Assembly (NCBI GenBank): GCA_030583705.1
Contig: CP129471.1
Location: 114,506-178,505, forward strand
From: Patescibacteria group bacterium
GTDB taxonomy: Bacteria > Patescibacteriota > Patescibacteriia > Patescibacteriales > Patescibacteriaceae
Direction: 5' to 3'
Length of the DNA stretch: 64,000 bases
In this document: in pieces, positions 1,852-34,400 of the stretch
Position numbering within the stretch: position 1 is the stretch's first letter
Layout of the letters: the number at the start of each line of letters is the position of its first letter
Made by a program: the position numbers and the translations under genes
Notes under the pieces: model-generated
Database searches by the model: none
Told to the model about the DNA's origin: nothing
The model's input: only the letters and a program-made list of their open reading frames with translations

Positions 1852-4800
1852 ATGGTTTTTCTTTCTAAGAAATTTATAATTTTACAGACATTTTTATTCT
1901 TATTGATAACTTTCTTTTTTATTTTTTCAGTCAAGGAGAATAATAATTTTTTTTATAAAGCTCAAGCTTTCTCAGAAAACAATAAAGATATTTTGTACGA
2001 AGAGGAAACTGAAGAAGAAGCCTTGTATGAAGAAGAAATTTTATACGAAGAAGAGATTAATAATACTAATGACAATGATAACACTATAGAGAATCAACTT
2101 AACCCAGAAGATAATCCAGAAGATCTTGACGAAGATAATAGTAGTCAAGAATCTTTTTTTACCTCCTTCTTCACCCCCAGAGAAAAGAAATCTAAAACAA
2201 ACGATGGATTAACTATCCCAGAATATACCCTAACCAGCTCTCATGAAATAAGTATAAGTCTCACCACAGACGGTGTGGTTAATTTTGGTAATATGGATCT
2301 TGATGATACCCTTGATTCTACCCCCTCAGGACTTAATAAGATTCAGACAGTTAGTGTGGATCAAGGTACAGTAGAGCTAGATATTAGGAGTACGCATTTT
2401 ACTTCTCTTGATCCTAATACTTGGTCCTTATCTAACACTAATGGAGAAGATCAGGTTAAATGGGACTTTTCAACTAACGGCTCCAGTTGGACAACTTTTG
2501 CTGTAGCAGATACTTTATATAATCTAGCTACCAACGTTACTGCTCCTGGCACCAAAAACATTTTCTTTAGATTAACAACCCCTTCTGCTACCAATAGCCT
2601 AAGCTCTCATGAAGCCCAAGTAACCATTGTGGCCAGTGAATATAACTTTATCTGTGGAACTTCTAATATTTACGACCAAGAAGATAATGAGTATGGTACA
2701 GTGGATATTAATGGGCAGTGTTGGATGAAAGAAAATTTAGCCTACCTACCATCGGTTAGCCCATCTAACCAGGGAAGTGAGTCAGATCCACATTATTATG
2801 TTTACGATTACCAAGGAACAGATGTTCAAGCGGCAAAAAACACTGCTAATTACACTACTCATGGTGTTCTCTATAACTGGCCAGCTGCCATGACCGCTTG
2901 TCCTACTGGTTGGAGACTTCCTTCTGAAGAAGAATTTAATGCACTGGAGCAACATACTATAGCTACTATTAACAGCCAAGAAGCTCAATATAGTTGTAAT
3001 AACTCACAAATCGGTTGGCAAAGATGTGCGGATAGTCTTAACGGAGATCAGGGTGGAGCTAAGGGTGTTGGTAAGTCTCTTAAGAAAGTTGGACAAGGCT
3101 CAGGTATTGGAGCTGGTGATGATCTTGTAGGTTTTTCAGCTATGTTATCCGGTTATCGCACAGGCAGTACTTTTAGTGGTCTCTCTGGTTATGCTTTTTT
3201 CTGGTTAACCCCGCAGTCTGGTCCCACCACTGCTTGGTTTAGGCACCTGAACACTACCTTTTCCACGGTTTATCGCGATGCGTTTAATAAGACCCTTGGT
3301 TATAGCGTACGCTGTATTAAAGAACCAGAAACCTATACTTTAACTTATTTGGCCGGAAATAACGGTTCTATTACCGGAGAAACTTCACAAACAGTAGTTC
3401 ATGGTTTAAATGGTACAGCAGTAACGGCCGTTCCTGATGAAGGCTATTCATTTGTTCAATGGAGTGATGCAGTACAAACAGCTGAAAGAACAGATACTAA
3501 TGTTACTCAAGATATTACCGTAACGGCCGAGTTTGAGGAAACCCCTTTCATCTGTGGAACAGATACTGTTGTTGATTTTAGCGGTAATTCTTATAACACT
3601 GTCCAAGTAGGTGCTCAATGTTGGATGGCTTCTCACCTAAACACCAAAATAAAACCAGATGGTACTTGTATTAATGGTGGAGGTAATCCTCCTTGTCCTA
3701 ATGCCTCTTCTAATGATAATAGCCTAGGCAGATCTTGTTATAATAACTCAGAGAGTAATTGTAATACCTATGGCTCTTTATATACTTGGGACGCAGCCAT
3801 GAATGGCTCTACTATTCCAGGAGCCCAAGGTATTTGTCCGGTTGGTTGGCATGTACCATTGGATGAAGAACAACATGTTCTTGAATGGTACCTTAAAGAC
3901 GGTGGGCAAACTTGTGATCCAAATCGTCATGCCATATATGATTGTAATACGGCTGGCACGAAACTTAAATCCGGAGGTTCCTCTGGTTTTAATAGTCTTT
4001 TGTCGGGGTTTAGAAATACTAGCAATTCTTTTTCTGCACTTAATACCTTTGGATATCTTTGGTCTTCTTCAGAGAATAGTACTAACGCAAAAACCCGTAT
4101 TCTGACTTCCACTGAGAGTGGAGTTTCTCGTCACATATCTGCTAGTAAGTTAAATGCCCTACCTTTAAGGTGTATTAAAAATCATAGCACGCACACCTTA
4201 ACCTATTCAGCCGGAGTTAATGGAAGTATTGTGGGAGAGACATCTCAGACAGTTTATAACGGTGGTTACGCTTCGCAGGTTATTGCTTTTGCCAATGAAG
4301 GATATTCATTTGTTCAATGGAGTGATGGTTTAACTATGAACCCAAGAATTGATACTAATATTACTCAAAATATTAACGTAACTGCTATTTTTGGAGCGGA
4401 GTCTTTTACCTGTGGAACAGATACTGTCCTTGATTTTAGCGGTAATTCTTATAACACTGTCCAAGTAGGTGCTCAATGTTGGATGGCTTCTCACCTAAAC
4501 ACCAAAATAAAACCAGATGGTACTTGTATTAACGGTGGAGGTAATCCTCCTTGTCCTAATGCCTCTTCTAATGATAACAGCCTAGGTAGATCTTGTTACG
4601 ATAACTCAGAGAGTAATTGCAATATTCATGGTTCTTTATATACCTGGGCGGCAGCCATGAATGGCTCTACTATTCCAGGAGCCCAAGGTATTTGTCCGGT
4701 TGGTTGGCATGTACCATTGGATGAAGAACAACATGTTCTTGAATGGTACCTTAAAGACGGAGGGCAGACTTGTGATCCAAATCGTAGCGGATATGATTGT

Positions 4801-5043
4801 AATACGGCTGGTACCAAGCTTAAAGTTGGAGGCTCTTCTGGTTTTAATAGTCTTTTGTCGGGGTTTAGAAATAGTAGTAATTCTTTTTCTCAGCTTAGCA
4901 CATTTGGCTATCTTTGGTCTTCTTCGGAAAGTAGTGGCGCTAACGCAATAGTTCGTTATTTAAATTCTTCTAGTAGCCAGGTTTATCGCCACACAGCCGT
5001 TAATAAGTTATTTTCCTTCTCTTTAAGATGTATTAAAAATTAA
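1852..5043 (+). CDS. Giant secreted adhesin-like protein with three FISUMP domains
   Basis: The 1063-aa product has an N-terminal hydrophobic export segment (about residues 7-27), then an acidic low-complexity linker with repeated LYEEE units. Residues about 105-264 are a beta-rich domain shared with the proteins at 5095 and 10161. Three FISUMP domains (Fibrobacter succinogenes major paralogous domain, lectin-like) follow at about 266-491, 566-777 and 852-1063. Each contains CGT...VYD-type starts, GQCWM or AQCWM, a GWH/RLP core, WSSSE and a terminal RC(I/V)K. They are separated by InlB-type beta repeats at about 495-563 and 781-848 (YTLTYLAGNNGSITGE...WSDAVQTAER). No sortase motif or C-terminal anchor is visible. 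It is likely an extracellular adhesin. FISUMP 2 and 3 are nearly identical except near their ends. Confidence 0.82.
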   Translation: MVFLSKKFIILQTFLFLLITFFFIFSVKENNNFFYKAQAFSENNKDILYEEETEEEALYEEEILYEEEINNTNDNDNTIENQLNPEDNPEDLDEDNSSQESFFTSFFTPREKKSKTNDGLTIPEYTLTSSHEISISLTTDGVVNFGNMDLDDTLDSTPSGLNKIQTVSVDQGTVELDIRSTHFTSLDPNTWSLSNTNGEDQVKWDFSTNGSSWTTFAVADTLYNLATNVTAPGTKNIFFRLTTPSATNSLSSHEAQVTIVASEYNFICGTSNIYDQEDNEYGTVDINGQCWMKENLAYLPSVSPSNQGSESDPHYYVYDYQGTDVQAAKNTANYTTHGVLYNWPAAMTACPTGWRLPSEEEFNALEQHTIATINSQEAQYSCNNSQIGWQRCADSLNGDQGGAKGVGKSLKKVGQGSGIGAGDDLVGFSAMLSGYRTGSTFSGLSGYAFFWLTPQSGPTTAWFRHLNTTFSTVYRDAFNKTLGYSVRCIKEPETYTLTYLAGNNGSITGETSQTVVHGLNGTAVTAVPDEGYSFVQWSDAVQTAERTDTNVTQDITVTAEFEETPFICGTDTVVDFSGNSYNTVQVGAQCWMASHLNTKIKPDGTCINGGGNPPCPNASSNDNSLGRSCYNNSESNCNTYGSLYTWDAAMNGSTIPGAQGICPVGWHVPLDEEQHVLEWYLKDGGQTCDPNRHAIYDCNTAGTKLKSGGSSGFNSLLSGFRNTSNSFSALNTFGYLWSSSENSTNAKTRILTSTESGVSRHISASKLNALPLRCIKNHSTHTLTYSAGVNGSIVGETSQTVYNGGYASQVIAFANEGYSFVQWSDGLTMNPRIDTNITQNINVTAIFGAESFTCGTDTVLDFSGNSYNTVQVGAQCWMASHLNTKIKPDGTCINGGGNPPCPNASSNDNSLGRSCYDNSESNCNIHGSLYTWAAAMNGSTIPGAQGICPVGWHVPLDEEQHVLEWYLKDGGQTCDPNRSGYDCNTAGTKLKVGGSSGFNSLLSGFRNSSNSFSQLSTFGYLWSSSESSGANAIVRYLNSSSSQVYRHTAVNKLFSFSLRCIKN
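2163..2727. repeat. 565-bp module shared with the next giant gene, copy 1
   Basis: This segment encodes the linker, the shared beta domain and the beginning of the first FISUMP domain. It is almost the same DNA as 5895-6459, with a constant offset of 3732 and only scattered substitutions. The identity stops at the codons for the GQCWM motif, after which the two genes carry different FISUMP types. This shows a recent duplication or gene conversion. Confidence 0.85.
3548..4085. repeat. Internal duplication of FISUMP domain, copy 1
   Basis: The DNA of FISUMP domain 2 is nearly identical to that of domain 3 (4407-4935) from the first residues up to the WSSSE codons, apart from one small indel near DPNR. 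After WSSSE the two copies diverge sharply for about 100 bases, then converge again at the final RCIKN codons. Confidence 0.8.
4407..4935. repeat. Internal duplication of FISUMP domain, copy 2
   Basis: This is the partner of 3548-4085. Near-identity ends at the WSSSE codons, so the tail of the lectin-like domain is the only part that differs strongly. Confidence 0.8.
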
Positions 5044-5094: not shown

Positions 5095-8000
5095 ATGAGT
5101 TTATTCTTGCGTAAAAAATCAAGAGTTTTTTTGCTTATCGCCTTTTTATTAATAGGGGTTGCTTTTAGTTTCCCTTCTATTTTTAGCGATTTTATTCTAA
5201 AAGCTCAGGAAGCAGAGGATCTTTGTGATACTGAAAGGGGTTGGGTTAAGCAGGGAGAATATTGCCAGCTTATTTTAACAGCCAATCCAGGTTATAATCA
5301 TTTATTTTTATTACCTGATGATTGGAATAATAATGATAATACTATAGAGGTTATTGGTGGAGGTGGTAGCGGAGCGGTTTCTTCTGGCGAGTTGGAGGAA
5401 TTTCCAACAGGCGGTTTGGCTGGGGAGTATAAAGTTATTTCCAATTTCTCTAATCCAGGTACTTCTCTTGTTTATCGTTTAGGTCTTGGTGGTAGTTCAA
5501 GGTCAAAAACTTCTGGTGTTTGGACTGGTCAACAAGGCGGTGATACTTTTTTTAACAGAGTAGAGGGGGATAGTAATACCTGTGAAGATAATTCATCTGT
5601 ATGCGCTCAAGGCGGAGAAGCCGGATACCTATCCGATAGTCTTTTAAATATGGACGGAGAATCTGTTGTCGCTCAAAATTGGGAAGATCAAGGTTTAGGT
5701 GGTAGTGGTATAAGCGATGAGTTGGATGGATCCTTAACGGCGGATAACGGAGGGCTTTATGGCGGAGGAGGGGGAGCTTGTTATAACTCTTCTCTTAGCG
5801 AAGAAGCTAAATGTTTTAGTGGAGCCGGCGCACAAGGAGTTATAGTAATAACCTATCTTCCTCAAGAGACTAGCGAAGAATCTTCTTCACGCAACTCCTT
5901 CTTCACCCCCAGAGAAAAGAAATCTAAAACAAACGATGGATTAACTATCCCAGAATATACCCTAACCAGCTCTCATGAAATAAGTATAAGTCTCACCACA
6001 GACGGTGTGGTTAATTTTGGTAATATGGATCTTGATGATACCCTTGATTCTACCCCCTCAGGACTTAATAAGATTCAGACAGTTAGTGTGGACCAAGGTA
6101 CAGTAGAGTTGGATATCAGTAGTACGAATTTTACTTCTCTTGATCCTAATACGTGGTCTTTATCCACTACTAATGGAGAAGATCAGGTTAAATGGGACTT
6201 TTCAACTAACGGCTCCAGTTGGACAACTTTTGCCGTAGCAAATACTTTATATAATCTAGCTACCAACGTTACTGCTCCTGGAACCAAAAACATTTTCTTT
6301 AGATTAACAACCCCTTCTACTACTAATGACCTAGGCTCTTATGAAGCCCAAGTAACCATTGTGGCCAGTGAATATAACTTTATCTGTGGAACTTCTAATA
6401 TTTATGACCAAGAAGATAATGAATACGGTACAGTGGATATTAATGGGCAGTGTTGGATGGCTTCTCACCTAAATACTAAGATAAAACCAGATGGTACCTG
6501 TATTAACGGTGGAGGTAACCCTCCTTGCCCTAATGCTTCCTCTGGTGATGATGGACTAGGTAGGTCTTGTTATAATAACTCAGAGAGTAATTGTAGTAGT
6601 CAAGGTTCTTTATATACTTGGGCAGCAGCGATGAATGGTATTCAGGAAGAAGGCGCTCAAGGTATTTGTCCGGTTGGTTGGCATGTGCCAACTGATGCAG
6701 AATGGCACAGTTTGGAACTTCATTTAACCGATAATGAGGAGACTTGTGATCCTAATAGAAATTTTTCCGAAAGTTGTCAAGGAGCTGGTACTAAACTTAA
6801 ACCAGGAGGTTCTTCTAATTTTGAGTTTACTATGGCTGGACGAAGATTGGAAAATAATTCTTTCTCTGATCAGAATTGGCTAGGGTATGGTTGGAGCTCA
6901 ACCGGCAGTAATCAGTGGTTTACTTCTCTGCGGACTCGTACGGTCCATAACAGCCTTAGTACTGTTGGTAGAGCACAATATTCACCAGATTTTGGCTTTA
7001 GTTTACGTTGTATTAAAGACCTCCCCACTTATACTTTAACCTATTCTGCTGGAGATAACGGTTCTATTACTGGAGAAGCTTCACAAACAGTAGTTCAGGG
7101 GTCTGATGGTACAGCGGTAACGGCCGTCCCTGACGTAGGTTATGTTTTTTCTCAGTGGAGCGATGCAGTGCAAACCGCTGAAAGAACAGATACTAATGTT
7201 ACTCAAGATATTACCGTAACAGCTATTTTTGAGGTAGCACCTTTTGTTTGCGGAACTTCAAATGTTTATGACTATGAGGGTAATGCTTATACTACTGTTG
7301 AGCTTGGTTATCGTTGTTGGATGAAAGAGAACCTAAACACCAAGGTTAAACCAAATGGTACTTGTATTAACGGTGGAGGAGCTCCTCCTTGTCCTACTGC
7401 TTCAGCTTCAGACAACGGCCTTGGAAGATCATGTTATTCCAACGACGAAGCAAACTGTACTACTGACGGTTCTCTCTACACTTGGGCTGGAGCTATGGAT
7501 GGTTCTACCACCCCAGGAGCCCAAGGTATCTGTCCCACGGGTTGGCATATCCCAACAGATAATGAATTTAAAGCCATGGAAATGGGCATTGGTATGAGTC
7601 AAGGACAAGTGGATGCTACCGATTGGCGAGGTACAGACGAAGGTAGAAAACTTAAATCACAACGTACAGTTAATGGTAGCCCTCCTCCAGGTATTCCCAC
7701 TAATGACCACCCTCGTTGGAACTATCACACCAACTTTGGTACCGACACCTCCGGTTTTTCCGCTCTACCTGCCGGCTTCAGGAATACGGCTGGCTCGTCA
7801 TTTAATGAGCGTTCCGCGGATGCATATTTTTGGTCTTCTTCTCCTTCTGGGGGTTCGACCTGGGGTCGTGCCTTGGTTTTTTCTGAGGCGAGGGTTTACC
7901 GCGTTGTTTATTTACAGGCTAATAGTTTTTCATTGCGCTGTGTTAAAGATCCCGAAACCTACAACCTTGAATACTCAGCCGGAGCAAATGGTTCAATTAG

Positions 8001-10011
8001 TGGTACTGCTTCTCAGTCTGTGGTCCATGGAGATAATGGATCAACCGTGACAGCTGTACCTGATGTTGGTTATGCCTTCCTTGAATGGAGCGATGGCGTA
8101 CAAACTGCCGCTCGTACCGATATGTATGTTACTGAAAATATTTCGGTAACTGCTGAGTTTTATGAAGCACCTTTTGTCTGTGGAACTTCAAGTATTTATG
8201 ACTATGAGGGTAATGCTTATACTACTGTTGAGCTTGGTTATCGTTGCTGGATGGCTCAAAATTTAAGAACCAAACATAAACCCAATGGTGACTTGCTAAC
8301 AAATCTAACAAATGGATCTGAACGTGATTGTATTTCTTCAAGTAATACTAGAGGCACGGAAGCTGATTGTACTGCCGGCTATGCTTTATATACCTGGGCG
8401 GGTGCTATGAATGGTTCTACTACTCCTGGAGCCCAAGGTATTTGTCCGACAGGCTGGCATGTCCCAACCGATCAAGAACAGCATATGTTGGAACTGTCTT
8501 TAACAGATCAAGCACAAACTTGTGATCCGCAAAGAGCCAGTGCTTGGGATTGTGATTCAGCCGGTACCAAACTTAAAACAGGTGGAAGTTCGGGTTTTAA
8601 CGCTATTTTAACAGGCAGACGTGACGCCACTGGCGCAGCATTTTTCAGTTATGGTGATATGGCCGGTATGTGGTCTTCTTCGGAAAATATTGGCAATCAA
8701 ACCTTGGCTTGGCGCAGAAATCTTTTCCTTGTTAATTCCACTGTTAACCGAAATAGCGTTGATAAACTTATTAGTTTTACCGTTAGATGCGTTAAAGATC
8801 CCGAAACCTACAGCCTTGAGTACTCAGCCGGAGCCAATGGTTCAATTAGTGGCACTGCTTCTCAGTCTGTAGTTCATGGAGATCATGGATCAACAGTGAC
8901 AGCCGTGCCTGATGTTGGTTATGCTTTTCTTGAATGGAGTGACAATGTACAAACCGCCGCTCGTACCGATATGTATGTTACTGGAAATATTTCGGTAACT
9001 GCGCAGTTTTATGAAGCTCCCAGCGTTCAAGAAACTCCAACCTTTAACCCGGCTGGCGGGGCAATAGCCTTTGGTACAACAGTGGTAATTTCTTCACCTA
9101 ATGCTGATGCTATTTATTACACCACTGATGGTTCAACTCCAACCACTTCTTCAACTAATCAGGCGGTTACTCCATTGGTTATTAATTCTAACGTTACAGT
9201 TAAGGCCATAGCGGTTAGGGCCGGTTACTCAAATAGTGAAGTAGCTACTACTTCTTATACTCAAGCAGCAAGCGCCAATCTTACAAATATCGTTTTGTCC
9301 GGTTCACCTATCGCCTATTCTTTTTCAGGAGGTACTTATACCTATAATGAAGTTAATGTATTGAATGGTGTTTCCAGTATAACCGTCACCCCTACTGGTC
9401 CAGGGGCTATTACCGTAGATGGAGTGTCTGTTAATTCAGGTAGTCCTTCCGGCGCTATCTCTTTAACTCCCTGGATTCTTAAATCCATTAATATAACTAC
9501 TACTGAAACAGGCAAGTCTCCCAAAACCTACATTATTAATATTACAAGAAGAGGCAACATTGGGGATAGTCATGCTGGGGGTTATGTGGCCTACATAGAC
9601 AGTTCAGGCATACATGGTTTTGTTGTGAGCACTGCCGATCTAAGCACTACCGCTCAATGGGGTTGCGAGGGAGTTAATATTGCTGGAGCAACTGGACAAG
9701 CTATTGGTACTGGAGCTGCTAATACAACAGCGATTCTTGCCGGTTGCGGAACCTCTGGTATAGCGGCTAGGTTAGCAGCTAATCATAATGGTGGCGGGTT
9801 TTCAGGCTGGTATTTACCATCTAAAGATGAATTGCAGCAAATACGTAATAATTCCGGAGCTATCCCTGGTTGGGTTAATTCAGGATGGATGTGGACCTCT
9901 TCTCAGGCAAGTGCTACTGCTGCTTGGGAAATGGCTCTTTATGATGCCGCATGGCACACTTACGCTAAGAGTGGAAATTTCTTTAAGGTTAGGGCTATTA
10001 GAAATTTCTAA
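5095..10011 (+). CDS. Giant secreted adhesin-like protein: glycine-rich, FISUMP x3, CHB_HEX_C, cadherin-like and DUF1566 domains
   Basis: The 1638-aa product starts with a basic, then hydrophobic export segment (residues about 8-30). Residues about 80-255 are a glycine-rich domain (GGGGSGAVSSG, GLYGGGGGACYN). The beta domain shared with 1852-5043 is at about 267-428. FISUMP domains lie at about 429-643, 716-953 and 1026-1236, each followed by an InlB-type repeat (about 645-714, 955-1025, 1239-1305). Then come a chitobiase C-terminal-like domain (about 1312-1389, IYYTTDGSTPTTSS), a cadherin-like sandwich (about 1394-1484) and a terminal DUF1566/Lcl domain (about 1490-1638, GWYLPSKDELQQI). The last two domains match the pilin-like protein at 560-1813. 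No cell-wall anchor is visible. Likely role: multi-headed adhesion to glycans or a host surface. Confidence 0.82.
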   Translation: MSLFLRKKSRVFLLIAFLLIGVAFSFPSIFSDFILKAQEAEDLCDTERGWVKQGEYCQLILTANPGYNHLFLLPDDWNNNDNTIEVIGGGGSGAVSSGELEEFPTGGLAGEYKVISNFSNPGTSLVYRLGLGGSSRSKTSGVWTGQQGGDTFFNRVEGDSNTCEDNSSVCAQGGEAGYLSDSLLNMDGESVVAQNWEDQGLGGSGISDELDGSLTADNGGLYGGGGGACYNSSLSEEAKCFSGAGAQGVIVITYLPQETSEESSSRNSFFTPREKKSKTNDGLTIPEYTLTSSHEISISLTTDGVVNFGNMDLDDTLDSTPSGLNKIQTVSVDQGTVELDISSTNFTSLDPNTWSLSTTNGEDQVKWDFSTNGSSWTTFAVANTLYNLATNVTAPGTKNIFFRLTTPSTTNDLGSYEAQVTIVASEYNFICGTSNIYDQEDNEYGTVDINGQCWMASHLNTKIKPDGTCINGGGNPPCPNASSGDDGLGRSCYNNSESNCSSQGSLYTWAAAMNGIQEEGAQGICPVGWHVPTDAEWHSLELHLTDNEETCDPNRNFSESCQGAGTKLKPGGSSNFEFTMAGRRLENNSFSDQNWLGYGWSSTGSNQWFTSLRTRTVHNSLSTVGRAQYSPDFGFSLRCIKDLPTYTLTYSAGDNGSITGEASQTVVQGSDGTAVTAVPDVGYVFSQWSDAVQTAERTDTNVTQDITVTAIFEVAPFVCGTSNVYDYEGNAYTTVELGYRCWMKENLNTKVKPNGTCINGGGAPPCPTASASDNGLGRSCYSNDEANCTTDGSLYTWAGAMDGSTTPGAQGICPTGWHIPTDNEFKAMEMGIGMSQGQVDATDWRGTDEGRKLKSQRTVNGSPPPGIPTNDHPRWNYHTNFGTDTSGFSALPAGFRNTAGSSFNERSADAYFWSSSPSGGSTWGRALVFSEARVYRVVYLQANSFSLRCVKDPETYNLEYSAGANGSISGTASQSVVHGDNGSTVTAVPDVGYAFLEWSDGVQTAARTDMYVTENISVTAEFYEAPFVCGTSSIYDYEGNAYTTVELGYRCWMAQNLRTKHKPNGDLLTNLTNGSERDCISSSNTRGTEADCTAGYALYTWAGAMNGSTTPGAQGICPTGWHVPTDQEQHMLELSLTDQAQTCDPQRASAWDCDSAGTKLKTGGSSGFNAILTGRRDATGAAFFSYGDMAGMWSSSENIGNQTLAWRRNLFLVNSTVNRNSVDKLISFTVRCVKDPETYSLEYSAGANGSISGTASQSVVHGDHGSTVTAVPDVGYAFLEWSDNVQTAARTDMYVTGNISVTAQFYEAPSVQETPTFNPAGGAIAFGTTVVISSPNADAIYYTTDGSTPTTSSTNQAVTPLVINSNVTVKAIAVRAGYSNSEVATTSYTQAASANLTNIVLSGSPIAYSFSGGTYTYNEVNVLNGVSSITVTPTGPGAITVDGVSVNSGSPSGAISLTPWILKSINITTTETGKSPKTYIINITRRGNIGDSHAGGYVAYIDSSGIHGFVVSTADLSTTAQWGCEGVNIAGATGQAIGTGAANTTAILAGCGTSGIAARLAANHNGGGFSGWYLPSKDELQQIRNNSGAIPGWVNSGWMWTSSQASATAAWEMALYDAAWHTYAKSGNFFKVRAIRNF
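5895..6459. repeat. 565-bp module shared with the previous giant gene, copy 2
   Basis: Nearly identical to 2163-2727. Directly after it the sequence switches to one resembling FISUMP 2 and 3 of the upstream gene (the ASHLNTKIKPDGTC codons), so the open reading frame is a mosaic joined at the GQCWM codons. Confidence 0.85.
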
Positions 10012-10160: not shown

Positions 10161-10694
10161 ATGAAAATAAAAAAGATACTTTTTGTTCTTCTAGCATCCG
10201 TAATTATAGTCGGACCGTTGGTTGTTTCAAAAGGTAATGCCAGTGAAACCGCTCAGGTTAGCGCCTCGGTTTCCATTAAGTCTATTTCAATTAGTATTGC
10301 TCCAGACTCTTTTACTTATGGTCCTATGGATACCTCGGCCACCAAAAGAGCAACTTCTGTTGTTGGAGTTGATCAAGTAAGAGTTACTAATGACAGTAAC
10401 GTTAACGTTGATTTAGATATATATGGAGGTAATACCACCGGAGGAGGAACCAACTGGACTCTAAGTCCAACGGCGATTGGTGCTGATACCTATATGCATG
10501 AGTTTACCACTAATATTAATGAGCCTGTTTGGACTAAGCTTAATGTGGTGGGGCAATCAGCTGTTCTTGGTACTAATATTGCCCAGGCTGGTACTAGAGA
10601 TTTTGATCTAAGAATGAATACCCCTTCTTCTGTAACAGAGTCAGGCGTTACTTTAACCGTCCCTGTTACAGTGATAGCTTCCGAAAACAACTAA
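10161..10694 (+). CDS. Small secreted WxL-like surface protein
   Basis: The 177-aa protein has a clear signal peptide (MKIKKILFVLLASVIIVGPL, likely cut near GNASETAQ). The rest is one beta-rich domain without cysteines, ending in TVPVTVIASENN. It is related to the domain shared by the giants at 1852 and 5095, which ends in AQVTIVASEYN and has the same GTxNWTL/DPNTWSL and DLRMNTPSS/FRLTTPS elements. The next gene encodes a DUF916-like membrane protein, so this pair recalls WxL proteins and their interacting partners in Firmicutes, although classic WxL motifs are not clear. It is probably a secreted surface subunit. The role is inferred. Confidence 0.7.
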   Translation: MKIKKILFVLLASVIIVGPLVVSKGNASETAQVSASVSIKSISISIAPDSFTYGPMDTSATKRATSVVGVDQVRVTNDSNVNVDLDIYGGNTTGGGTNWTLSPTAIGADTYMHEFTTNINEPVWTKLNVVGQSAVLGTNIAQAGTRDFDLRMNTPSSVTESGVTLTVPVTVIASENN

Positions 10695-10729: not shown

Positions 10730-11527
10730 ATGGCTACCAAAAAAATACTCGCCATTTTTTTCTCTATTGTTTTTTTACTGCCTTTGTCTGTAATTTACGC
10801 TCAAAAGGTTGGTGTTGGAGTATCTACCGGCACAATTAGAATTACCGAAGAATTAAGGCCAGGCGATATTTATCAGTTACCGCCCATGACGGTTGTTAAT
10901 ACTGGTGAAGCTGGTGCTTCTTATACTGTTTGGCCCGGTTTTAGGGCAGAACAGGCAGAACTTAGTTTTGATCCGGAATGGCTACAACTTTCTCCAGAAA
11001 CTTTTTATCTTGAACCTAATAAAACTCAAAAGGTTGATATTGTTTTAAAACTACCTTTAAGAGATGTTGAACCAGGAGAATATTTTTCTCTTTTAACCGC
11101 CAAGCCGATTAAAACAGATTCTCCGGGAGCACAAATTGGTGTAGCAGCGGCTACTAAACTATATTTTACGGTTAAACCCTCTAATATTTTACAGGCGATT
11201 TTTTATCGTTCGGGCGTTTTATGGAGAATGATTTATCCTTGGAATTATATAATTCTATCTTTACTTGTTCTTGGTGCTTTATATTATTTTTCTAAAAAAT
11301 TTATTGTTTTTGATATTGCTATTAAGAAAAAAGGGGATAAAAATAGCAGCTCAACCATTGCTGGCTCTAAGAGGAATAAAAAAGATTCAAAAAGTAAAGA
11401 TAGTATTAAGCAAGAGGAGATAAGCGAAGAAAGCGGAGATGAGCACAGTGAAGAAAAGCTTAATGTTAAAAAAACAGCAAGTAAAAAAAAGAAAAAAAGA
11501 GTAATTAAAGAAAAGAATTTAGATTAA
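10730..11527 (+). CDS. DUF916/WxL-interacting-like membrane protein
   Basis: The 265-aa product has an N-terminal signal (about residues 5-24), an extracellular Ig-like region (about 25-160; GTIRITEELRPGDIYQLPP, VVNTGEAGASYTVWPG, LEPNKTQKVDIVLKLP, DVEPGEYFSLL), a transmembrane helix (about 170-195; WNYIILSLLVLGALYYFSKK) and a cytoplasmic tail very rich in Lys, Glu and Ser. This order matches the WxL-protein-interacting family of Firmicutes (DUF916/DUF3324: beta domains, one helix, basic tail). It follows the WxL-like gene by 35 bases, so the two probably act together, holding the secreted subunit at the membrane. The function is inferred from architecture and neighbourhood. Confidence 0.65.
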   Translation: MATKKILAIFFSIVFLLPLSVIYAQKVGVGVSTGTIRITEELRPGDIYQLPPMTVVNTGEAGASYTVWPGFRAEQAELSFDPEWLQLSPETFYLEPNKTQKVDIVLKLPLRDVEPGEYFSLLTAKPIKTDSPGAQIGVAAATKLYFTVKPSNILQAIFYRSGVLWRMIYPWNYIILSLLVLGALYYFSKKFIVFDIAIKKKGDKNSSSTIAGSKRNKKDSKSKDSIKQEEISEESGDEHSEEKLNVKKTASKKKKKRVIKEKNLD

Positions 11528-11536
11528 TTTTTTAAA

Positions 11537-12553
11537 ATGAAGTTTCTTTATTTAATCAGCACAATTTTCTTACTGATTATTGGGTTATTGTATGATAATC
11601 ATGCTTCGGCTGTCGGTTCTTCTTCATTAGAGAGTTTTGTTAGAATTTCTGTTTGTGGTAATGGCATACTTGAGGGTTCCGAACAGTGTGATGGTAATGA
11701 TTTGGGCCAAGCAACTTGCACGAGCCTAAATCTTGGTGATGGTAATTTAAGTTGTAGGATTAATTGCGAGTTCAACACTGAATCTTGTGCGACTTCTCAA
11801 CCTCCGACTTCCCGACCAATTGTCGAAGAGAAAAAAACCGGCGTTATTTTATCAGGTTATACCTCAGCTTTGAGTGATCTTTTTATTTTAAAAGACGGGC
11901 AAACGATTAAGGAGCAAAAAATCGGAGATGATGGAAGGTTTCGCTTTGAACTTACGGATATATCGGCCGGCTCTTATATTTTCGGAGTTTATGTAAGAGA
12001 TAGTGGAGGTCTAAGATCTCCTATTAGAAATGTACCACTTGTTTTGACAAACGGCATGATAACTCATGCTGAAAATATTTTTATAGCTCCTACTTTATCT
12101 GCCGATAAGCTTGAAGTTACACGGGGAGGAATGATAAACTTTTTTGGTTCTTCTTTTCCTTCCGCCCTTATTAAATTTTATATTACCCCATTAGATAGTT
12201 TTTCAGCTTCTTTAAATAGTAATTTTTTAGGTGCTTATTCTTATAATTTTCAAACCGAAAATCTTGCTTTTGGAAATTATACAGTTAGATCACAGGCCTT
12301 TTTAAATAATGAATTAAGTAGTCTTAGTGCGCCTTTTAGTTTTAATTTAGGTGAAAGAACTGTTGAACTAGAAAATCAGCCGGTACTTGATATAGCGGAT
12401 CTTAACGGTGATGGCAAGGTAAATTTAATAGATTTTTCCATCATTGTTTATTGGTATCAAAGATCAAACCCCCCTGTGCATGTTGATTTAAACGATGACG
12501 GCGTGGTTGATTTAGCTGATTTTAGTATTTTGGCTTATTATTGGACCGGTTAA
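11537..12553 (+). CDS. Secreted dockerin type I protein
   Basis: The 338-aa protein has a signal peptide (about residues 1-25), a Cys-rich segment of the DUF4215 type (about 38-90; CGNGILEGSEQCDGNDL and three more cysteine pairs), a central region of two probable Ig-like units (about 100-275), and a C-terminal dockerin (about 285-338). The dockerin has two calcium loops, DLNGDGKVNLIDFSIIVYW and DLNDDGVVDLADFSILAYY, with the D-x-N-x-D-G-x-x-x-x-x-D spacing. Dockerins bind cohesins in a calcium-dependent way. The next two genes encode membrane-anchored cohesin-like proteins, so this is probably their ligand. No catalytic domain is visible, so it is not a cellulosomal enzyme. Confidence 0.85.
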   Translation: MKFLYLISTIFLLIIGLLYDNHASAVGSSSLESFVRISVCGNGILEGSEQCDGNDLGQATCTSLNLGDGNLSCRINCEFNTESCATSQPPTSRPIVEEKKTGVILSGYTSALSDLFILKDGQTIKEQKIGDDGRFRFELTDISAGSYIFGVYVRDSGGLRSPIRNVPLVLTNGMITHAENIFIAPTLSADKLEVTRGGMINFFGSSFPSALIKFYITPLDSFSASLNSNFLGAYSYNFQTENLAFGNYTVRSQAFLNNELSSLSAPFSFNLGERTVELENQPVLDIADLNGDGKVNLIDFSIIVYWYQRSNPPVHVDLNDDGVVDLADFSILAYYWTG

Positions 12554-12554
12554 T

Positions 12555-13445
12555 ATGAGTATTTTGTATAAGGTATTTTTTGTTCTATTCTTTTTATTTT
12601 TCTCTGTCCACTATACTCAAGCGGCTGATTTTTTTATAGGAGAAGAGATTAATGATTTGGGCTTGGGACAGGTTTTTAAGACAGATATTTTTATTAATAC
12701 TGAATCAGAGAACTTAAATACTTTTTCGGCTAAAGTGCTTTTTTCCGATAATTTAAGTTTAAAAAATGTTTATTCTGGAAGTTCTATTATAAGTTTTTGG
12801 ATTAAAAAGCCTGAACTTAGCGAAGATGGTTCATTAACTTTTTCGGGTATTATACCTGGTGGCTATATGGGTCACGAGGGTTTTTTATTTTCACTTGAGC
12901 TTGAAGCGGTTAATGCCGGACAAGCTTTTATTTTAATTGATGAGGCCCAGGTTTTTAAGCATGATGGAACAGGGCAAGCTCTATCAATTGATTCTAAAAC
13001 CTTTGATTTTTTTATTGATCAAGAAACTTCTTTGTTAACTTATGAGAAGCAAGTAGACCAAGAGCCTCCAGAGATTTTTAGTGTTGAGATTATAAGTGAT
13101 GAAAATATTTTTGATGGTCAATGGGTGGCAATCTTTGATACTCATGATAAAGGACTTGGTCTTGATTATTACATGGTTAAAGAGTCTCGTAGTCGGATCT
13201 TGGGATTTTTTAAAAAATGGAGAATAGCTGAGAGCCCCTTGGTCTTAGAAGATCAAGCAAGAAAAAGTTATCTTTGGATTAAAGCGGTTGATAAGGCCGG
13301 TAATGAAAGGGTTTTAACTGTTCCGCCGACGGTTAATAGCTCCTGGTATTCCAATCTTGACATTCTTCTTGTTATATCTTTGATTTTTCTGCTATTATTT
13401 ATTATAAGGGCGTTTAAAAATATTTTATATGTTAAAAAAAGGTAA
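12555..13445 (+). CDS. Membrane-anchored cohesin-like protein 1
   Basis: The 296-aa protein has a signal peptide ending near TQAADFF, a cohesin-like beta-sandwich (about residues 25-155; GQVFKTDIFINTESENLNT, SGSSIISFWIKKPELSEDG, TFSGIIPGG), a second Ig-like domain (about 172-262; WIKAVDKAGNERVL) and a C-terminal transmembrane helix (about 268-290) with a short basic tail. It starts one base after the dockerin gene's stop, so translation is probably coupled. Its cohesin region is clearly related to that of the next protein (shared WIKxP, SLxFxGII, VxxNDG-like elements). Likely role: surface receptor for the dockerin. The cohesin call is by family pattern and is moderately divergent. Confidence 0.72.
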   Translation: MSILYKVFFVLFFLFFSVHYTQAADFFIGEEINDLGLGQVFKTDIFINTESENLNTFSAKVLFSDNLSLKNVYSGSSIISFWIKKPELSEDGSLTFSGIIPGGYMGHEGFLFSLELEAVNAGQAFILIDEAQVFKHDGTGQALSIDSKTFDFFIDQETSLLTYEKQVDQEPPEIFSVEIISDENIFDGQWVAIFDTHDKGLGLDYYMVKESRSRILGFFKKWRIAESPLVLEDQARKSYLWIKAVDKAGNERVLTVPPTVNSSWYSNLDILLVISLIFLLLFIIRAFKNILYVKKR

Positions 13446-14373
13446 AATCTATAATAAAATAATTATATTAGCTTCGCTAGTTCTTTTATTTTATTCTTTT
13501 GATCGGCTTAATGCTGCTGTTTTGTTTTATGAGACAGCGGAAACTTATAAGGCGGGTGATTATTTTGATGTACCTGTTCTTATTTCCAGCCCCGAAGAGG
13601 CGATTAACGCTGTTTCCGTAACTTTGTCTTTTCCAGCTGATCAGCTTAAGTTTATTGAGAGTTCGGTTAATAACTCTATTTTTGACATGTGGATTAAAGA
13701 GCCGACTATTTCTTCTTCAAGTGATAGCCTATCATTTGAGGGTATTATATTTAATCCGGGTTTTTCTTCTTCGGGCGGTAATCTTTTAAATCTTAGATTT
13801 TTAGGCTTAAAATCAGGGGAGGCTAAGCTAAATTTTTCTTCCTCACTTGTTTTAGCTAATGATGGACAAGCTACTCCAGTTAATTTTACAACATCTTCTC
13901 CATCCTTTTTAATTTTATCGTCTCCTGATCAGCCTAATCAAGAAGCTCCTGGGCAGTCCTTAAAAGAAGAGGCGGAGAGCGAGACAACCCAAAAAACAGA
14001 TAAGGATAAGGGTGACAAGGTAGAAAGCGATGAGGAGAATAATCAAAAAGATTCTTATGAGGAAGAAGATCTTTCTTTAGACTCCAGTGAACAAAAAGAA
14101 CTATTTAGTGGCTTAGCTATTTATTTTAGTGAAATGAAGGAGACAGAAAAATGTTTTTTCGGTTTTGAAGATTTATGTTATCGCCTAACACCTTTTTCTT
14201 TAATGCTTTTAGCGCTTCTTTTGGTAGCCACGGGTTTGTTAATTTTTAGAATATTTAAATTTACAGGACTTAACAAGCAAGGGGCAATTAAGGATAAAGC
14301 AAGATTCTTTTTCTATGCTTCAATTCTCTCTTTGGTTATTATTTTATCTCTAATCTTTATAATTAAAGGTTAG
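13429..14373 (+). CDS. Membrane-anchored cohesin-like protein 2
   Basis: The 314-aa product has an N-terminal export helix (about residues 8-28), a cohesin domain (about 30-165; AGDYFDVPVLISSPEEAINAV, SVTLSFPADQLKF, DSLSFEGIIFNPGF, GGNLLNLRF), an acidic Ser/Glu/Lys linker (about 170-235) and two transmembrane helices (about 255-277 and 292-312). The start overlaps the previous gene by 17 bases, so the two cohesins are co-translated. A short cysteine pair (CFFGFEDLC) lies just before the first helix. It is presumably the second docking site for the dockerin protein or for dockerins encoded elsewhere. Confidence 0.75.
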   Translation: MLKKGKIYNKIIILASLVLLFYSFDRLNAAVLFYETAETYKAGDYFDVPVLISSPEEAINAVSVTLSFPADQLKFIESSVNNSIFDMWIKEPTISSSSDSLSFEGIIFNPGFSSSGGNLLNLRFLGLKSGEAKLNFSSSLVLANDGQATPVNFTTSSPSFLILSSPDQPNQEAPGQSLKEEAESETTQKTDKDKGDKVESDEENNQKDSYEEEDLSLDSSEQKELFSGLAIYFSEMKETEKCFFGFEDLCYRLTPFSLMLLALLLVATGLLIFRIFKFTGLNKQGAIKDKARFFFYASILSLVIILSLIFIIKG

Positions 14374-28710: not shown

Positions 28711-31437
28711 ATGTCTTTATTTAAGGTAACATTGTCTTGGATTTTTGCCGTTTTATTTTTCGGATTATTTCAGCTAGCGGCTGTTTCGGCCGGTACGCCT
28801 GATTTAGGTTTAAATTACGCTGAGCCAATTGGTTTGCCTGGTACTGACCCAAGAATAATTATTGCCAGAATAATCCAAATAGCCTTGGGCTTTTTGGGAA
28901 TTTTGGCTGTCTCTTTGATAATCTATGCTGGTTTTCTTTGGATGACCTCTAAAGGTGATGAAGAAAAAGTTTCTAAAGCTAAAACTATCTTAAAGAATGG
29001 AGTTATTGGTTTAGTGATTATTCTTTCTTCTTTTGCTATTGCTACTTTTGTCTTAAGTCGTTTAATGGCAGCTTTTGGTTCAGGCGGATCTGGTTCAGGC
29101 GGACCAGGTGCCGGTGGAGGCTTAGGTGCTTTGGGTAATGGTATAATTGAAAGTGTTTATCCAGAACCCGGAGCCTTAGGGGTACCTCGTAATACCAGTA
29201 TTATTGTTACTTTTCGTTTACCTATGTCGCCGGGAAGTATTTGTCTTAATGTTGAAAATGATCTTTGTTCTCCGGGAACCAAAATAAGAACCGAGAGTGT
29301 ACAGATAAGGAATACCACTGATCCAAATAATCCTTCTGAGGCTTTAAGTAATGTTCTTGTTAGCTCTAATGATAACCGTACTTTTGTTTTTCGTCCGGTT
29401 GAGCCTTTGGGAGGAAGCCAAAATACCATTTACACCGTTATGTTAACCAATGAAATAAAGACCGCGGCCAACCAAGGAGCTTTTGGTGGTTTGAATAATT
29501 TCAGCTGGAGTTTTGAGGTAAGCAATGAATTTGATTTTATGCCTCCAAGAATTCTTGGTCTTAAACTTTTGGATAATAACCCCCCTATAAATGAAAGTCT
29601 GGGTATTTTTCCTTTACCAGATAATGAACGCGATGAAATAAGCGAGGAAATAGAGCCGACTAGGGCTTTTGGTGCTATTGAAGCTGTTAATTCTACTATG
29701 GTACCAGACACTTATCAAGCGGCTTCTGCCACCATTGAACGTGGAGTTGGTGGTGAACCAGGTACTGTAGGAGCTTCGGTTTCCGGCACTAATCAATGCG
29801 AAAACGGAGAGGTTACTGTTCTTATAGACACCAATGGAACTCATGCCAATATTTCTTACACTCAACCTGGTCAAGAAGGAGATTCTTTGCTTATTTTAGA
29901 TAACAGTGTTCCTTTGGGTCCTTGTGATTTAATGGTACAGTTTCAGTCCGGAGAAGTTGTGGCCGGGCGTTCTTGGATTGTTACAACAGTGGAAGAAAGA
30001 CAAGCAGATACTTTAACGGTTGGTTCAAGAATCTATACCTTTGTGAATGAAAATGCCGGTAATTTTCAAATACAAGTTGGAGCTAATGCTCAACAAACCG
30101 CTGTTGCCATTAGAGATAAGATTAACAGTACTAGTAACCCCCACCCTCAGGTAAGTGCCGCTCTTGATCCTAGAGCACAAACTCCTACTGTAATAATTAC
30201 CGCTAAAATAGCTGGTCCTGGAGGTAACTTTTTGGAGTTATCCGATAGCTCTATAGCACTTATTACCAATGGTATGAGGGGTGGTAATGAAAGACAAGTT
30301 AATTATACGATTAGGGGAGAAAGAGACCAGCCCATGAATACTATTATCCAGATTAATTTTAACGAAGCTATTAATCCGATTACCGTAGCTGGTAATAGCG
30401 AACAGTTAAAGAATAAATTAAGGGTGATTAATGCGCAGAGCGAAGAAGCTTTTGATGGTGCAAGTTGTTCCATGGATAACGAATGTCGTTCATTTAATTG
30501 TTTTGAAGGTTCTTGTCGGGGCGATGTTTTGTCCGGTAATTTTGTGATTGCTAATCAGTATAAGACGGTTGAGTTTATTTCGGATAAGAAATGCGGAGTT
30601 AATGGTTGTGGAGAAAGTATCTATTGTTTACCTAAAGACGCTGAGGTTAAAGTGGAGGCTGAGGCTGCTGAACTTTATGCTTGTACCGATTCTTCACAAT
30701 GCGATCAGTTTTCTTACACACAATGTGTTAACAGTCTTTGCCAAGATCCCGGCGTTGGACAGAATCCTCCAAGAAATAATCCTCAGGCCAGTATAATTAA
30801 CGGTATAGTTGACGCTGCTAGTAACTCTTTTGATGGTAATCGTAACATGGATGCCGAAGGTAGACGTTCTTATTACAGTCAAAATGACGATGAACTTCTT
30901 AACCGAGGAAAGGGAGATCATTATAATTGGTCTTTTTGGGTGAGTGATCGTTTAGATCTAACACCACCTAAGATTGATAGTGTTTCAGTTGTTAATAACC
31001 AACCTAAGGTTCATTTATCTTTACCTATTAAAATAACTTTCAGTAAGTTAATGATGTCTTCCACTATGACCACCGGTATTCGTATGGTTGATACTGGTTT
31101 TGAACAAGTAGCTCATCGTTTGATTAACCTTTGGTCTGCCGGCAATCATTTAGTGGGTTATTGGGTACGTAGTCAAAATATTGATTCCAACTCAAGTGGA
31201 GAAACAGATAAAACAGAAGCGTTTTTGGAGCATGGATTTTTCAGAGACTCCACAGTCTACAACAGCCAAGTCGGTTCCGGGGTTAAGGATCTTTATCAGA
31301 ATTGTTATAAACCATCCAGTGGGCCTGGTTGCATAGCTACTGCGCAGAATCCTTCATGTTGTCGTGACGGTAACGGTAACTTGCTGGCTACTGCCACTTT
31401 AACGGCTGACGGTAAATGTCCGATTGTTAGCAATTAA
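28711..31437 (+). CDS. VirB2/TrbC-like pilin-type protein with large extracellular Ig-like region
   Basis: The 908-aa protein begins with a signal-like helix (about 5-27), then a segment of the type IV secretion pilin type: two hydrophobic helices joined by a short basic loop (IIYAGFLWMTSKGDEEKVSKA, written here IIYAGFLWMTSKGDEEKV, then ILKNGVIGLVIILSSFAIAT; about 48-115). A Gly/Ser hinge follows. The rest is extracellular: a Big_5/SbsA-like Ig domain (ESVYPEPGALGVPRNTSIIV), further beta domains, and two short Cys clusters (about 588-605 and 650-680). Standard VirB2 proteins are about 100 aa, so this is a fusion in which the pilin-like part probably serves as membrane anchor or assembly unit. 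The neighbour at 31444 has the same N-terminus. Confidence 0.75.
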   Translation: MSLFKVTLSWIFAVLFFGLFQLAAVSAGTPDLGLNYAEPIGLPGTDPRIIIARIIQIALGFLGILAVSLIIYAGFLWMTSKGDEEKVSKAKTILKNGVIGLVIILSSFAIATFVLSRLMAAFGSGGSGSGGPGAGGGLGALGNGIIESVYPEPGALGVPRNTSIIVTFRLPMSPGSICLNVENDLCSPGTKIRTESVQIRNTTDPNNPSEALSNVLVSSNDNRTFVFRPVEPLGGSQNTIYTVMLTNEIKTAANQGAFGGLNNFSWSFEVSNEFDFMPPRILGLKLLDNNPPINESLGIFPLPDNERDEISEEIEPTRAFGAIEAVNSTMVPDTYQAASATIERGVGGEPGTVGASVSGTNQCENGEVTVLIDTNGTHANISYTQPGQEGDSLLILDNSVPLGPCDLMVQFQSGEVVAGRSWIVTTVEERQADTLTVGSRIYTFVNENAGNFQIQVGANAQQTAVAIRDKINSTSNPHPQVSAALDPRAQTPTVIITAKIAGPGGNFLELSDSSIALITNGMRGGNERQVNYTIRGERDQPMNTIIQINFNEAINPITVAGNSEQLKNKLRVINAQSEEAFDGASCSMDNECRSFNCFEGSCRGDVLSGNFVIANQYKTVEFISDKKCGVNGCGESIYCLPKDAEVKVEAEAAELYACTDSSQCDQFSYTQCVNSLCQDPGVGQNPPRNNPQASIINGIVDAASNSFDGNRNMDAEGRRSYYSQNDDELLNRGKGDHYNWSFWVSDRLDLTPPKIDSVSVVNNQPKVHLSLPIKITFSKLMMSSTMTTGIRMVDTGFEQVAHRLINLWSAGNHLVGYWVRSQNIDSNSSGETDKTEAFLEHGFFRDSTVYNSQVGSGVKDLYQNCYKPSSGPGCIATAQNPSCCRDGNGNLLATATLTADGKCPIVSN

Positions 31438-31443
31438 AATTAT

Positions 31444-34400
31444 ATGAAAACCCCTTTTAAGACTTTAATCATTTCCTTTACTTTATTAGCTTCATGTTTG
31501 GCTATTATTTTATTTGGGGCGACTGAACCTTTGATGGCTCAAGAGACTGAGTTCGGAATAACCCAAAATCAAGGGGTTGATACAGGTCTTGAATTTGCCG
31601 AAGGTATAGGTCTTTCTAAAACAGACCCACGGATTATGGCTGCTCGTATTATTCAGATTGCTTTGGGCTTCTTGGGTATTTTGGCGGTTGGTTTAATAAT
31701 CTATGCCGGTTTTATTTGGATGACCTCCAAGGGGGATGAAGAAAAAGTTTCTAAAGCCAAAACTATTTTAAAAAACGGAGCTATTGGTTTGGTTATAGTA
31801 TTAGGTTCTTTTGCCATTGCTACTTTTGTTTTGGGTAGATTACAGCAGTCTCTCGGTGGTGGCTCGGGTGATCCTGGTAGCGGTGATCCAGGAACCGGTG
31901 GGACTACAGTTTTTGCGGTACAAAGCACTACACCAGCCAATAACATGCAAAACGTTCCCCGTAACGCGATTATCCGGTTTAGTTTCACTAAAAATCTTCA
32001 AGAATCTTCAGTTAATGCCAATTCATTTATTGTCTCTTATGTTAATCAAACAGGCGGTAATTCAGTGATAGATGGTGCAATTTCTATTGTTAACGGTAGA
32101 TACGTTGAATTTACCCCTTCTGCAACTTGTGATGAACCAAATCAGAACATTAACTGTTTTGAGGCTGGTAGGCAAGTTTCAGTAGAGGCGGCTGGTAGCT
32201 TGGGTGGTATTTTAAGTATTAATAATGAAACTCTATTTTGTTCAGGTTCATATAATTGTAGTATTCTTTTTACAGTCGGTAATTGGCTTGATACCGAGGC
32301 ACCTAGGGTTAATATTTTAAATCGTCAGATTTGTGCGGCGGCTGAAAATATTATTGAAGCCAGCAGTATAGATAATTATGGTGTTTCTCATATAGATTTT
32401 TATGTTAATGAAGAATTTCTAGATAGACGACAAAATGATTCCAATCCTTTTGTTGGTAGCCCTTTTAATACTTCCGCTATTTGGAACTCTACTGGTTATG
32501 AGGTTGGACAAGTTGTTGGTTTAAAAGTTACGGCTTATGACTTAGACAATAACACAGGTACGGCCGAGGAATTTATTAGCCTTTCTCCATCACATTGTTG
32601 TAATGGTATACAAGATGGTGATGAAACTGGTATTGATTGTGGAGGTAGTTGTTTAGCTTGTACTGGTCAGGCTTGTGCGGTAGATAATCAGATCCCTGAG
32701 CAATGTAGTGATGATCTTTGTTCTTCCGGTCTTTGTTCAACCCTTGGTTCTTCCTCTGAGATTTGTGATGATGCTGGTTACGGGGGAGATATTTCATCAT
32801 GTTGTCTTTGTCAGGGTAGACCAAAAATAGAATGGATTAGTCCAATGGGAGGTTTTTGTAGTAATGATGTTAATCAGTACTGTCGGGATGATCAAGTTTG
32901 TGGTTCAGACGGTCATTGTGAAAGAGGCGTACCCAATGGAGCGCCAGGTAATTTTGTTACCATTGGCGGACAAGGTTTTGGAGCCCAAAAAGGTAAGGTT
33001 TTCTTTACCGACAATAATGGTAATTTAGTTGAAGCGGCTTTAGCGGATGATCCTGGTTTGGGTAATGCTCAGTGTACGGGTCAAGCCTGGAGAGATGAGC
33101 AAATTATAGCTGTTGTGCCATCTAGTGTAGGTAACGGCGGTATTACGGTGGAATTAGCCAATGGACAGGTCAGAGACGCTTCTAATGATGCTTTTGGCCC
33201 CTTGGTTAACGACTTTGTTCGTAATAATATTGAAAGACCGGGTGTTTGTCTTATTTCTCCAGACTCCGGAGTTTTTAATCAGAATGTTCAGTACCAAGGA
33301 GTTAAGCTAAATGCTTCTGAGGCTTATTTTGGTAATCTTTATCAAAATATAAAATCACCTCTTTCTTCTTTCTCGGACAAATCTGGTACTGCTTCAGTGC
33401 CAAATCTCCAAGACGGACAAACCACTACTTTTGTAGAAAAGGTTGGTGTAGAAAGTAACTTCCTGGGTTTCGTTAAAGACCCTGAGCCATATACCGGACC
33501 GATTATTTCCTCTATTGAGCCATCCAGTGGTCCGATTGGTCAATATGTAACCGTTCGTGGTTCTGGTTTTGGTCATATAAGAGGTACGAGTAATCTTTAT
33601 TTTGGTCCGACAGATGGAATTTTAGCTGATTATAATTTCCCTGAAATTTGCGCAGACAGTGTTTGGAGCGATAATCAGATTATAGTTAAGGTTCCTAGTG
33701 GAGTCAGTCTTGGAGAATTTTATAAACTTACTTTATCAGCCTCAGGTTATCCGCCGGTAGACAGCGGTACACTACGTTTCCAGGTTATGGAAGGTACACC
33801 TGATCCCGGTATTTGTCGTGTTTCTCCGATAATCGGACAACCTAACCAATTTATAAATATTTACGGAGAATATTTCCGTGATAAAGACGAAAACAGTGCA
33901 GCTCGTTTTTATAACCAACAAAATCAGTCCGGTAATGCCTTAGCGGAGTGGGCCATAGACCAGAGCGCTTCAGGTATTAAGCCTTGGAAAGTCTTAACTT
34001 CAGTTCCGCAAAATTCTCAAACCGGTCCTTTGCGTATTTTGGCCGGCTCACCGATGCAATTAAGTAACAGTGTTAATTTCGCAGTTGGTAGTTGTCAGCA
34101 AAATGCAGATTGTGGTGGTAGTCAAGTTTGTTGTTTAGCCGGTTTACCAGAAGGTGGTAAGTGTAAAGATAATGAAATGCAATGTTATGGTAATATTTTA
34201 ACTAGTGTTTATGAGTGGCGTTTTAATACTGGCTCAGAGTTTGCTTGTGCTGCAGATCAAGAACAATGTGGTACGGTTTGTTGTGCTACTGGTTCTTGCG
34301 AAAGAGATCCTGAAACCGGAGAGCCGCAAAATAAGTGTGAGGGTTGTTTAGAAGATCAAAATAAGTGCGGTAATGGGCAGTGCTGTAATGGCGCTTGCAA

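Follow-up and report, generated by a model that had tools for sequence, protein, structure and literature searches.

What does a dockerin gene with two cohesin genes directly downstream do in a Patescibacterial genome: does the set specify a cellulosome, or does it hold surface proteins on the cell? The question is raised by a locus in a window of 64,000 nucleotides, by which we mean the whole stretch of DNA that was analysed, taken from a genome of one contig (869,590 bases, completeness 95%). How CPR bacteria hold proteins and present them to hosts is largely unknown, and the locus offers a concrete envelope unit of three to five genes. We consider it quite likely that this unit is a module with which Patescibacteria tether proteins to their surface by a dedicated, non-cellulosomal pairing of dockerin and cohesin. 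In it, the plug-and-socket joint of the cellulosome probably serves to hold surface proteins and not to digest plant fibre.

Layout of the locus

Three open reading frames on the forward strand form the core of the locus. We refer to them as DOC, COH1 and COH2, and to two neighbours upstream as U1 and U2. The features, in window coordinates, are as follows.

1852..5043, + strand: large secreted protein; its three Fib_succ_major domains are accompanied by a U2-related region (Pfam, U2 clustering)
5095..10011, + strand: another large secreted protein, 1638 aa; here Lcl_C and a U2-related region accompany three Fib_succ_major domains (Pfam, U2 clustering)
10161..10694, + strand: U2, small secreted beta-rich protein, 177 aa; relatives lie upstream in 63 of 101 loci
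10730..11527, + strand: U1, WxLIP-like membrane protein, 265 aa; relatives lie upstream in 71 of 101 loci
11537..12553, + strand: DOC, secreted dockerin protein, 338 aa (ORF, signal peptide, Pfam Dockerin_1)
11657..11788, + strand: Cys-rich head of DOC, CGNGILEGSEQCD...C, about residues 41-84, DUF4215-like (weak DUF4215 match)
11831..12352, + strand: two Ig-like modules of DOC, about residues 99-272 (Big_6, conserved columns)
12392..12550, + strand: C-terminal dockerin of DOC, ending ...YYWTG (loop 1 at 12398-12433, loop 2 at 12485-12520)
12555..13445, + strand: COH1, 296 aa, with signal peptide, predicted cohesin, Ig-like domain and C-terminal membrane helix (AlphaFold2 and Foldseek, hydropathy)
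12627..13028, + strand: predicted cohesin domain of COH1, residues 25-158 (AlphaFold2 model, Foldseek against the PDB)
13429..14373, + strand: COH2, 314 aa, with signal peptide, putative cohesin at about residues 30-160, acidic linker and membrane helices (homology to COH1, hydropathy)

A single base separates DOC from COH1, and COH1 and COH2 overlap by 17 bases. Reading frames, spacing and overlap agree with the initial annotation, which had described an operon with a dockerin gene and then two cohesin genes in a CPR-like genome; the genome is indeed Patescibacterial.

A secreted protein that ends in a dockerin

The annotation had also called the first gene product a secreted protein with a two-loop calcium dockerin, and this is borne out. 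Residues 287-333 of DOC matched the type I dockerin of Pfam, Dockerin_1 (PF00404), at 2.9e-6, over the curated cut-off; the canonical calcium ligands are present in both F-hand loops, DLNGDGKVNLID and DLNDDGVVDLAD; and the hydropathy profile showed a signal peptide and no other membrane helix. Among the relatives, 100 of 106 dockerin matches ran to the very end of the protein, which is usually WTG. At least one canonical loop was found in 98 of 100 dockerins and two in 50 of 100, and in the consensus the putative recognition faces of the two dockerin halves are almost the same (LVDFSI and LIDFSI).

The part ahead of the dockerin is more variable. The Cys-rich head of the window protein matched DUF4215 only weakly (0.0079), and a head of the form CG[DN]..E..E.CD occurs in 57 of 101 DOC proteins. 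The Ig-like modules, which have many conserved columns in the family alignment, matched Big_6 at 0.0045 in the window protein, as did 66 of 78 DOC relatives. Elsewhere the DOC slot is occupied by a 2391-aa protein with TIG domains, or by open frames rich in fn3 repeats that exceed 5400 and 4100 aa within the fetched stretches. The giant fn3-rich frames of loci L156 (3719-19999) and L158 (3-12401) both have a dockerin end directly before COH1; another count puts them at about 6440 and 6475 aa.

Two membrane-anchored proteins with cohesin-like domains

The cohesin character of the two downstream proteins could not be read from Pfam directly, as neither window COH1 nor window COH2 matched Cohesin (PF00963). 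At the family level, 16 of 21 COH2 members matched it (best 1.7e-9), and 3 of 21 COH1 members did so weakly; COH2 itself is homologous to COH1 (BLASTP 3e-9). Single-sequence searches of the PDB with COH1 and COH2 gave nothing useful, and a profile search of the PDB returned only borderline cohesin matches, so a structure model of COH1 was needed. AlphaFold2 run on the COH1 alignment gave a pLDDT of 87.4. When this model was compared with the PDB by Foldseek, nearly all the best matches were cohesins, with TMt up to 0.79: the top match was 2w1n (1.5e-10), a non-cellulosomal cohesin of Clostridium perfringens, 6kgc and 2vo8 followed among the leading cohesins, and 2xdh, the cohesin of Archaeoglobus fulgidus, ranked fifth. 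According to the model, COH1 has the cohesin beta-sandwich (jelly-roll) fold; for the window COH2 the same fold is inferred by homology. A predicted fold other than that of a cohesin would have refuted the annotated cohesin-like domains, and since nearly all the best PDB matches of the COH1 model are cohesins, this test was passed.

Hydropathy likewise confirmed the C-terminal membrane helices that had been assigned to both proteins, at residues 268-286 in COH1 and near residues 249-278 and 294-312 in COH2. The relatives of COH2 are mostly about 590 aa long and consist of a signal peptide, a cohesin, two Ig domains, a membrane helix and a cytoplasmic coiled coil; the window COH2 is shorter than most of them, the difference being the two Ig domains and the coiled coil. 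One COH2 relative bears a PG_binding_1 domain.

The trio recurs across Patescibacteria

A scan of named genomes with DOC alone found 191 relatives, while the same scan with COH1 alone found nothing. The best 80 of the 191 are named as Patescibacteria (Wolfe-, Nomura-, Kaiser-, Magasanik-, Komeili-, Falkow- and Uhr-bacteria, among others), the exceptions being unclassified bins and one genome labelled Methylomirabilis. After removal of duplicates, we compared 101 non-redundant DOC loci. A cohesin gene directly follows DOC on the same strand in 98 of them, the other three being contig ends, and the dockerin gene is followed by two cohesin genes in 84. About twenty loci had been fetched for their COH1 and are thus not independent of this linkage; the named loci were retrieved with DOC as the only query. 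The recurrence of a dockerin gene with two cohesin genes is more than chance.

Within the order, a COH1 relative is present in 35 of 111 genomes and 22 of 59 genera. Matches to the COH1 profile, which include other cohesins, occurred in 94 of 286 genomes of a class sample and 87 of 380 of a phylum sample. All 35 genomes of the order with COH1 also contain a Pfam dockerin, against 7 of the 76 without COH1 (Fisher 3e-22, although the species are not independent). A further family, f120, consists of a protein of 177-199 residues with a similar Cys-rich head and a divergent dockerin, encoded directly before the gene of a membrane cohesin (best Pfam match 3e-9) that has an extra Cys-containing N-terminal part. 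On account of this gene pair, the pairing of dockerin and cohesin can be said to recur with a different cohesin architecture. Judged by these comparisons of sequence and gene order, the DOC-COH1-COH2 trio appears to be an ancient module that is conserved widely in Patescibacteria.

Two variants may be recorded here. The f120 cohesin frames of loci L205-L208 begin with a two-helix membrane part that contains a CxxC...CxxC zinc-ribbon-like loop. The second loci of three families (L171, L172 and L159, of f5, f2 and f19) represent a second operon type, in which COH1 is absent and a single COH2-like protein accompanies the dockerin protein, whose length is about 600 or 2391 aa.

Evidence for contact between dockerin and cohesin

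In one locus, L060, DOC and COH1 lie in the same frame, which made the locus usable for a single-chain tandem model. With the stops read through, dockerin and cohesin form one chain, joined by a stretch of linker and signal of about 60 residues. The model had a pLDDT of 85.1 (about 94 for the dockerin and for the cohesin) and a pTM of 0.76, where by our own estimate an unplaced dockerin would give 0.62-0.70. A Foldseek search with the tandem model matched only single cohesin chains and gave no interface information. The model supports docking of the dockerin on the cohesin, with the reservation that the support is a summary score (pTM) without PAE or coordinates, and that there are no binding data. 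To the annotation's second ground for refutation, the absence of a dockerin-cohesin interface, the model thus gives only an indirect answer. Correlations of distance trees were 0.15 for dockerin and COH1 and 0.14 for dockerin and WxLIP, and there was none for dockerin and COH2; this result is weak and not specific to COH1, so we do not count it as support. That the joint depends on calcium is inferred.

The same data bear on the alternative that there is no joint at all. The dockerin could be a mere folded C-terminal cap, a calcium-stabilised end of DOC, while the cohesin-like domains bind peptidoglycan, glycan, U2 or each other. The seven genomes of the order that have dockerin-like pairs without COH1, the PG_binding_1 domain of one COH2 and the weak tree correlation would all fit such an arrangement. 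Nevertheless, neighbourhood and co-occurrence are near-absolute, f120 provides a second dockerin-cohesin gene pair with another architecture, and the tandem model points to docking, which leaves the cap improbable, if not quite negligible.

Probable partners encoded upstream

The initial annotation took the unit to be three genes. The trio itself stands, but its extent does not: in most relatives the unit also includes two kinds of upstream gene, one for a membrane protein resembling WxLIP and one for small secreted beta proteins. U1 is built of a signal peptide, one Ig-like domain, a membrane helix (residues 174-192) and a lysine-rich tail. The window U1 had no Pfam match to PF06030 (WxLIP_PGBD), while 4 of 29 U1 relatives matched it (best 7.1e-8) and the U1 family profile matched EfmWxLIP1 in the PDB (7e-4). 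The window U2 was without a Pfam match; 3 of 29 U2 relatives weakly matched SCPU and none matched the WxL domain of Pfam. U2 clustering placed a U2-related domain also inside both large Fib_succ_major proteins. We infer that U1 and the small beta proteins probably belong to the DOC/cohesin surface complex as well. Membership of the two large proteins as further surface components is possible and likewise inferred.

These neighbours recall the WxL gene clusters, in which a membrane-anchored WxLIP (DUF916-DUF3324) lies beside small and large surface proteins (PMC10599100). Could the locus be a cluster of this Gram-positive type, with WxLIP and small and large WxL proteins forming the complex and the dockerin and cohesins only adding an anchor? 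U1 is homologous to WxLIP, and the small (177 aa) and large (1063 and 1638 aa) proteins with a U2 domain mimic the small and large WxL proteins of that paper. The details do not follow, however. A WxLIP of the known clusters has a PGBD, an HBD and a membrane helix, whereas in the window U1 there is a single Ig-like domain and the second WxLIP domain is lacking; U1 was not seen in 30 of 101 loci; and that paper describes no cohesin or dockerin. WxL clusters also have two or more proteins with a dual W-x-L motif; here Pfam gave no WxL match, and W-x-L occurs in 47 of 111 U2 proteins, which is the frequency expected by chance, so that U2 as a WxL domain was rejected and membership in the WxL clusters is not claimed. 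We regard this origin of the complex as unlikely, slightly more so than the cap.

Why the locus does not look like a cellulosome

The presence of dockerin and cohesin domains is the signature of a cellulosome, and the cohesin and dockerin genes that a CPR bacterium, Ca. Shapirobacterales, expresses in situ have been read in this way (PMC9123182); the passage on these genes describes no operon, anchors or partners. A search of the present genome with Pfam and with family-specific profiles found exactly one dockerin and two cohesins, which speaks for a dedicated pair or trio and not for a hub with a list of cargo. The further dockerins that the annotation had expected elsewhere in the genome as a cargo list did not materialise. 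Its other expectation, that no hydrolase is present, held for the approximately 90 dockerin partners scanned (78 and about 10 more), none of which carries a hydrolase or a carbohydrate-binding module. A cellulosome or minicellulosome, in which cohesins held by the cell collect dockerin-tagged enzymes that degrade polysaccharides, is rejected as very improbable, since there is a single dockerin, the dockerin proteins scanned carry no hydrolase, each cohesin protein carries one cohesin where a scaffoldin would have several, and the dockerin gene adjoins its own cohesin genes.

A proposed surface tether

The single dockerin, the lack of hydrolases and the anchored cohesins support the annotated non-cellulosomal docking system that fastens a secreted protein to the cell. 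In the tethering module as we propose it, DOC would be secreted, and its calcium-stabilised C-terminal dockerin would plug into the cohesin of COH1, of COH2 or of both. The two cohesin proteins would be held in the cytoplasmic membrane by their C-terminal helices and face outwards. DOC would thereby be retained at the cell surface and would expose to the outside its variable N-terminal part, the Cys-rich head and a stalk of Ig, fn3 or TIG domains. The WxLIP-like protein and the small beta proteins would sit alongside as probable components. Use of the module for adhesion or host contact is an inference.

A more far-reaching version is conceivable and remains speculative. Here one dockerin would clamp both COH1 and COH2, with WxLIP-held proteins beside them, as a phylum-wide presenter for host contact required for the epibiotic lifestyle, and SEML1_0315 would be its Saccharibacterial form. 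SEML1_0315 is a dockerin protein of Southlakia epibionticum (Saccharibacteria) that was essential by Tn-seq for growth on the host (PMC10633639). Both it and DOC are Patescibacterial envelope dockerin proteins, while the text of that report mentions no cohesin partner. Our results suggest a class of cohesin partners to seek around this essential protein in a genetically tractable species.

Relation to known dockerin-cohesin systems

No description of the DOC-COH1-COH2 operon was found in the literature searched. The closest solved folds to COH1 belong to the cohesins and dockerins of C. perfringens glycoside hydrolases (2w1n, 2vo8, 2jh2), which also pair outside cellulosomes; like COH1, 2w1n has a further domain after the cohesin. 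In C. perfringens the modules are carried by hydrolases or toxins, whereas here the proteins are non-enzymatic surface proteins, the cohesins are anchored in the membrane and the genes are adjacent. A. fulgidus (2xdh) likewise has few modules per genome and is non-cellulosomal. Its cohesin gene has a dockerin gene as a neighbour, like the module described here. A. fulgidus is, however, an archaeon and is not known to have a recurring three-gene unit with WxLIP partners. The module is found in many Patescibacteria, its joint (calcium dependence being inferred) is testable, and it provides a non-cellulosomal reading for cohesin and dockerin annotations of CPR bacteria that have so far been taken as cellulosomes.

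Other large surface proteins and a retroelement

The genome of 0.87 Mb contains 21 Fib_succ_major domains, several of them in frames of about 400 aa. In the one such frame that was checked, at window positions 46395-47702, the N-terminus is that of a type IV pilin. In two other large proteins of the window (28711-31437 and 31444-38118), a T4SS pilin-like helix domain occurs together with a Big_5 Ig domain; fn3 and TIG domains are present as well in the larger one, at 31444-38118.

We also observed a diversity-generating retroelement. Its reverse transcriptase lies at C1:827979-828659, and its two 179-base repeats lie at 3414-3592 and 4159-4337 of L219 (about 828913-829091 and 829658-829836 of C1). 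The repeats differ at 15 positions; at every one of these the copy closer to the reverse transcriptase has a T, which is an A on the opposite strand. The variable copy sits inside a Fib_succ_major frame.
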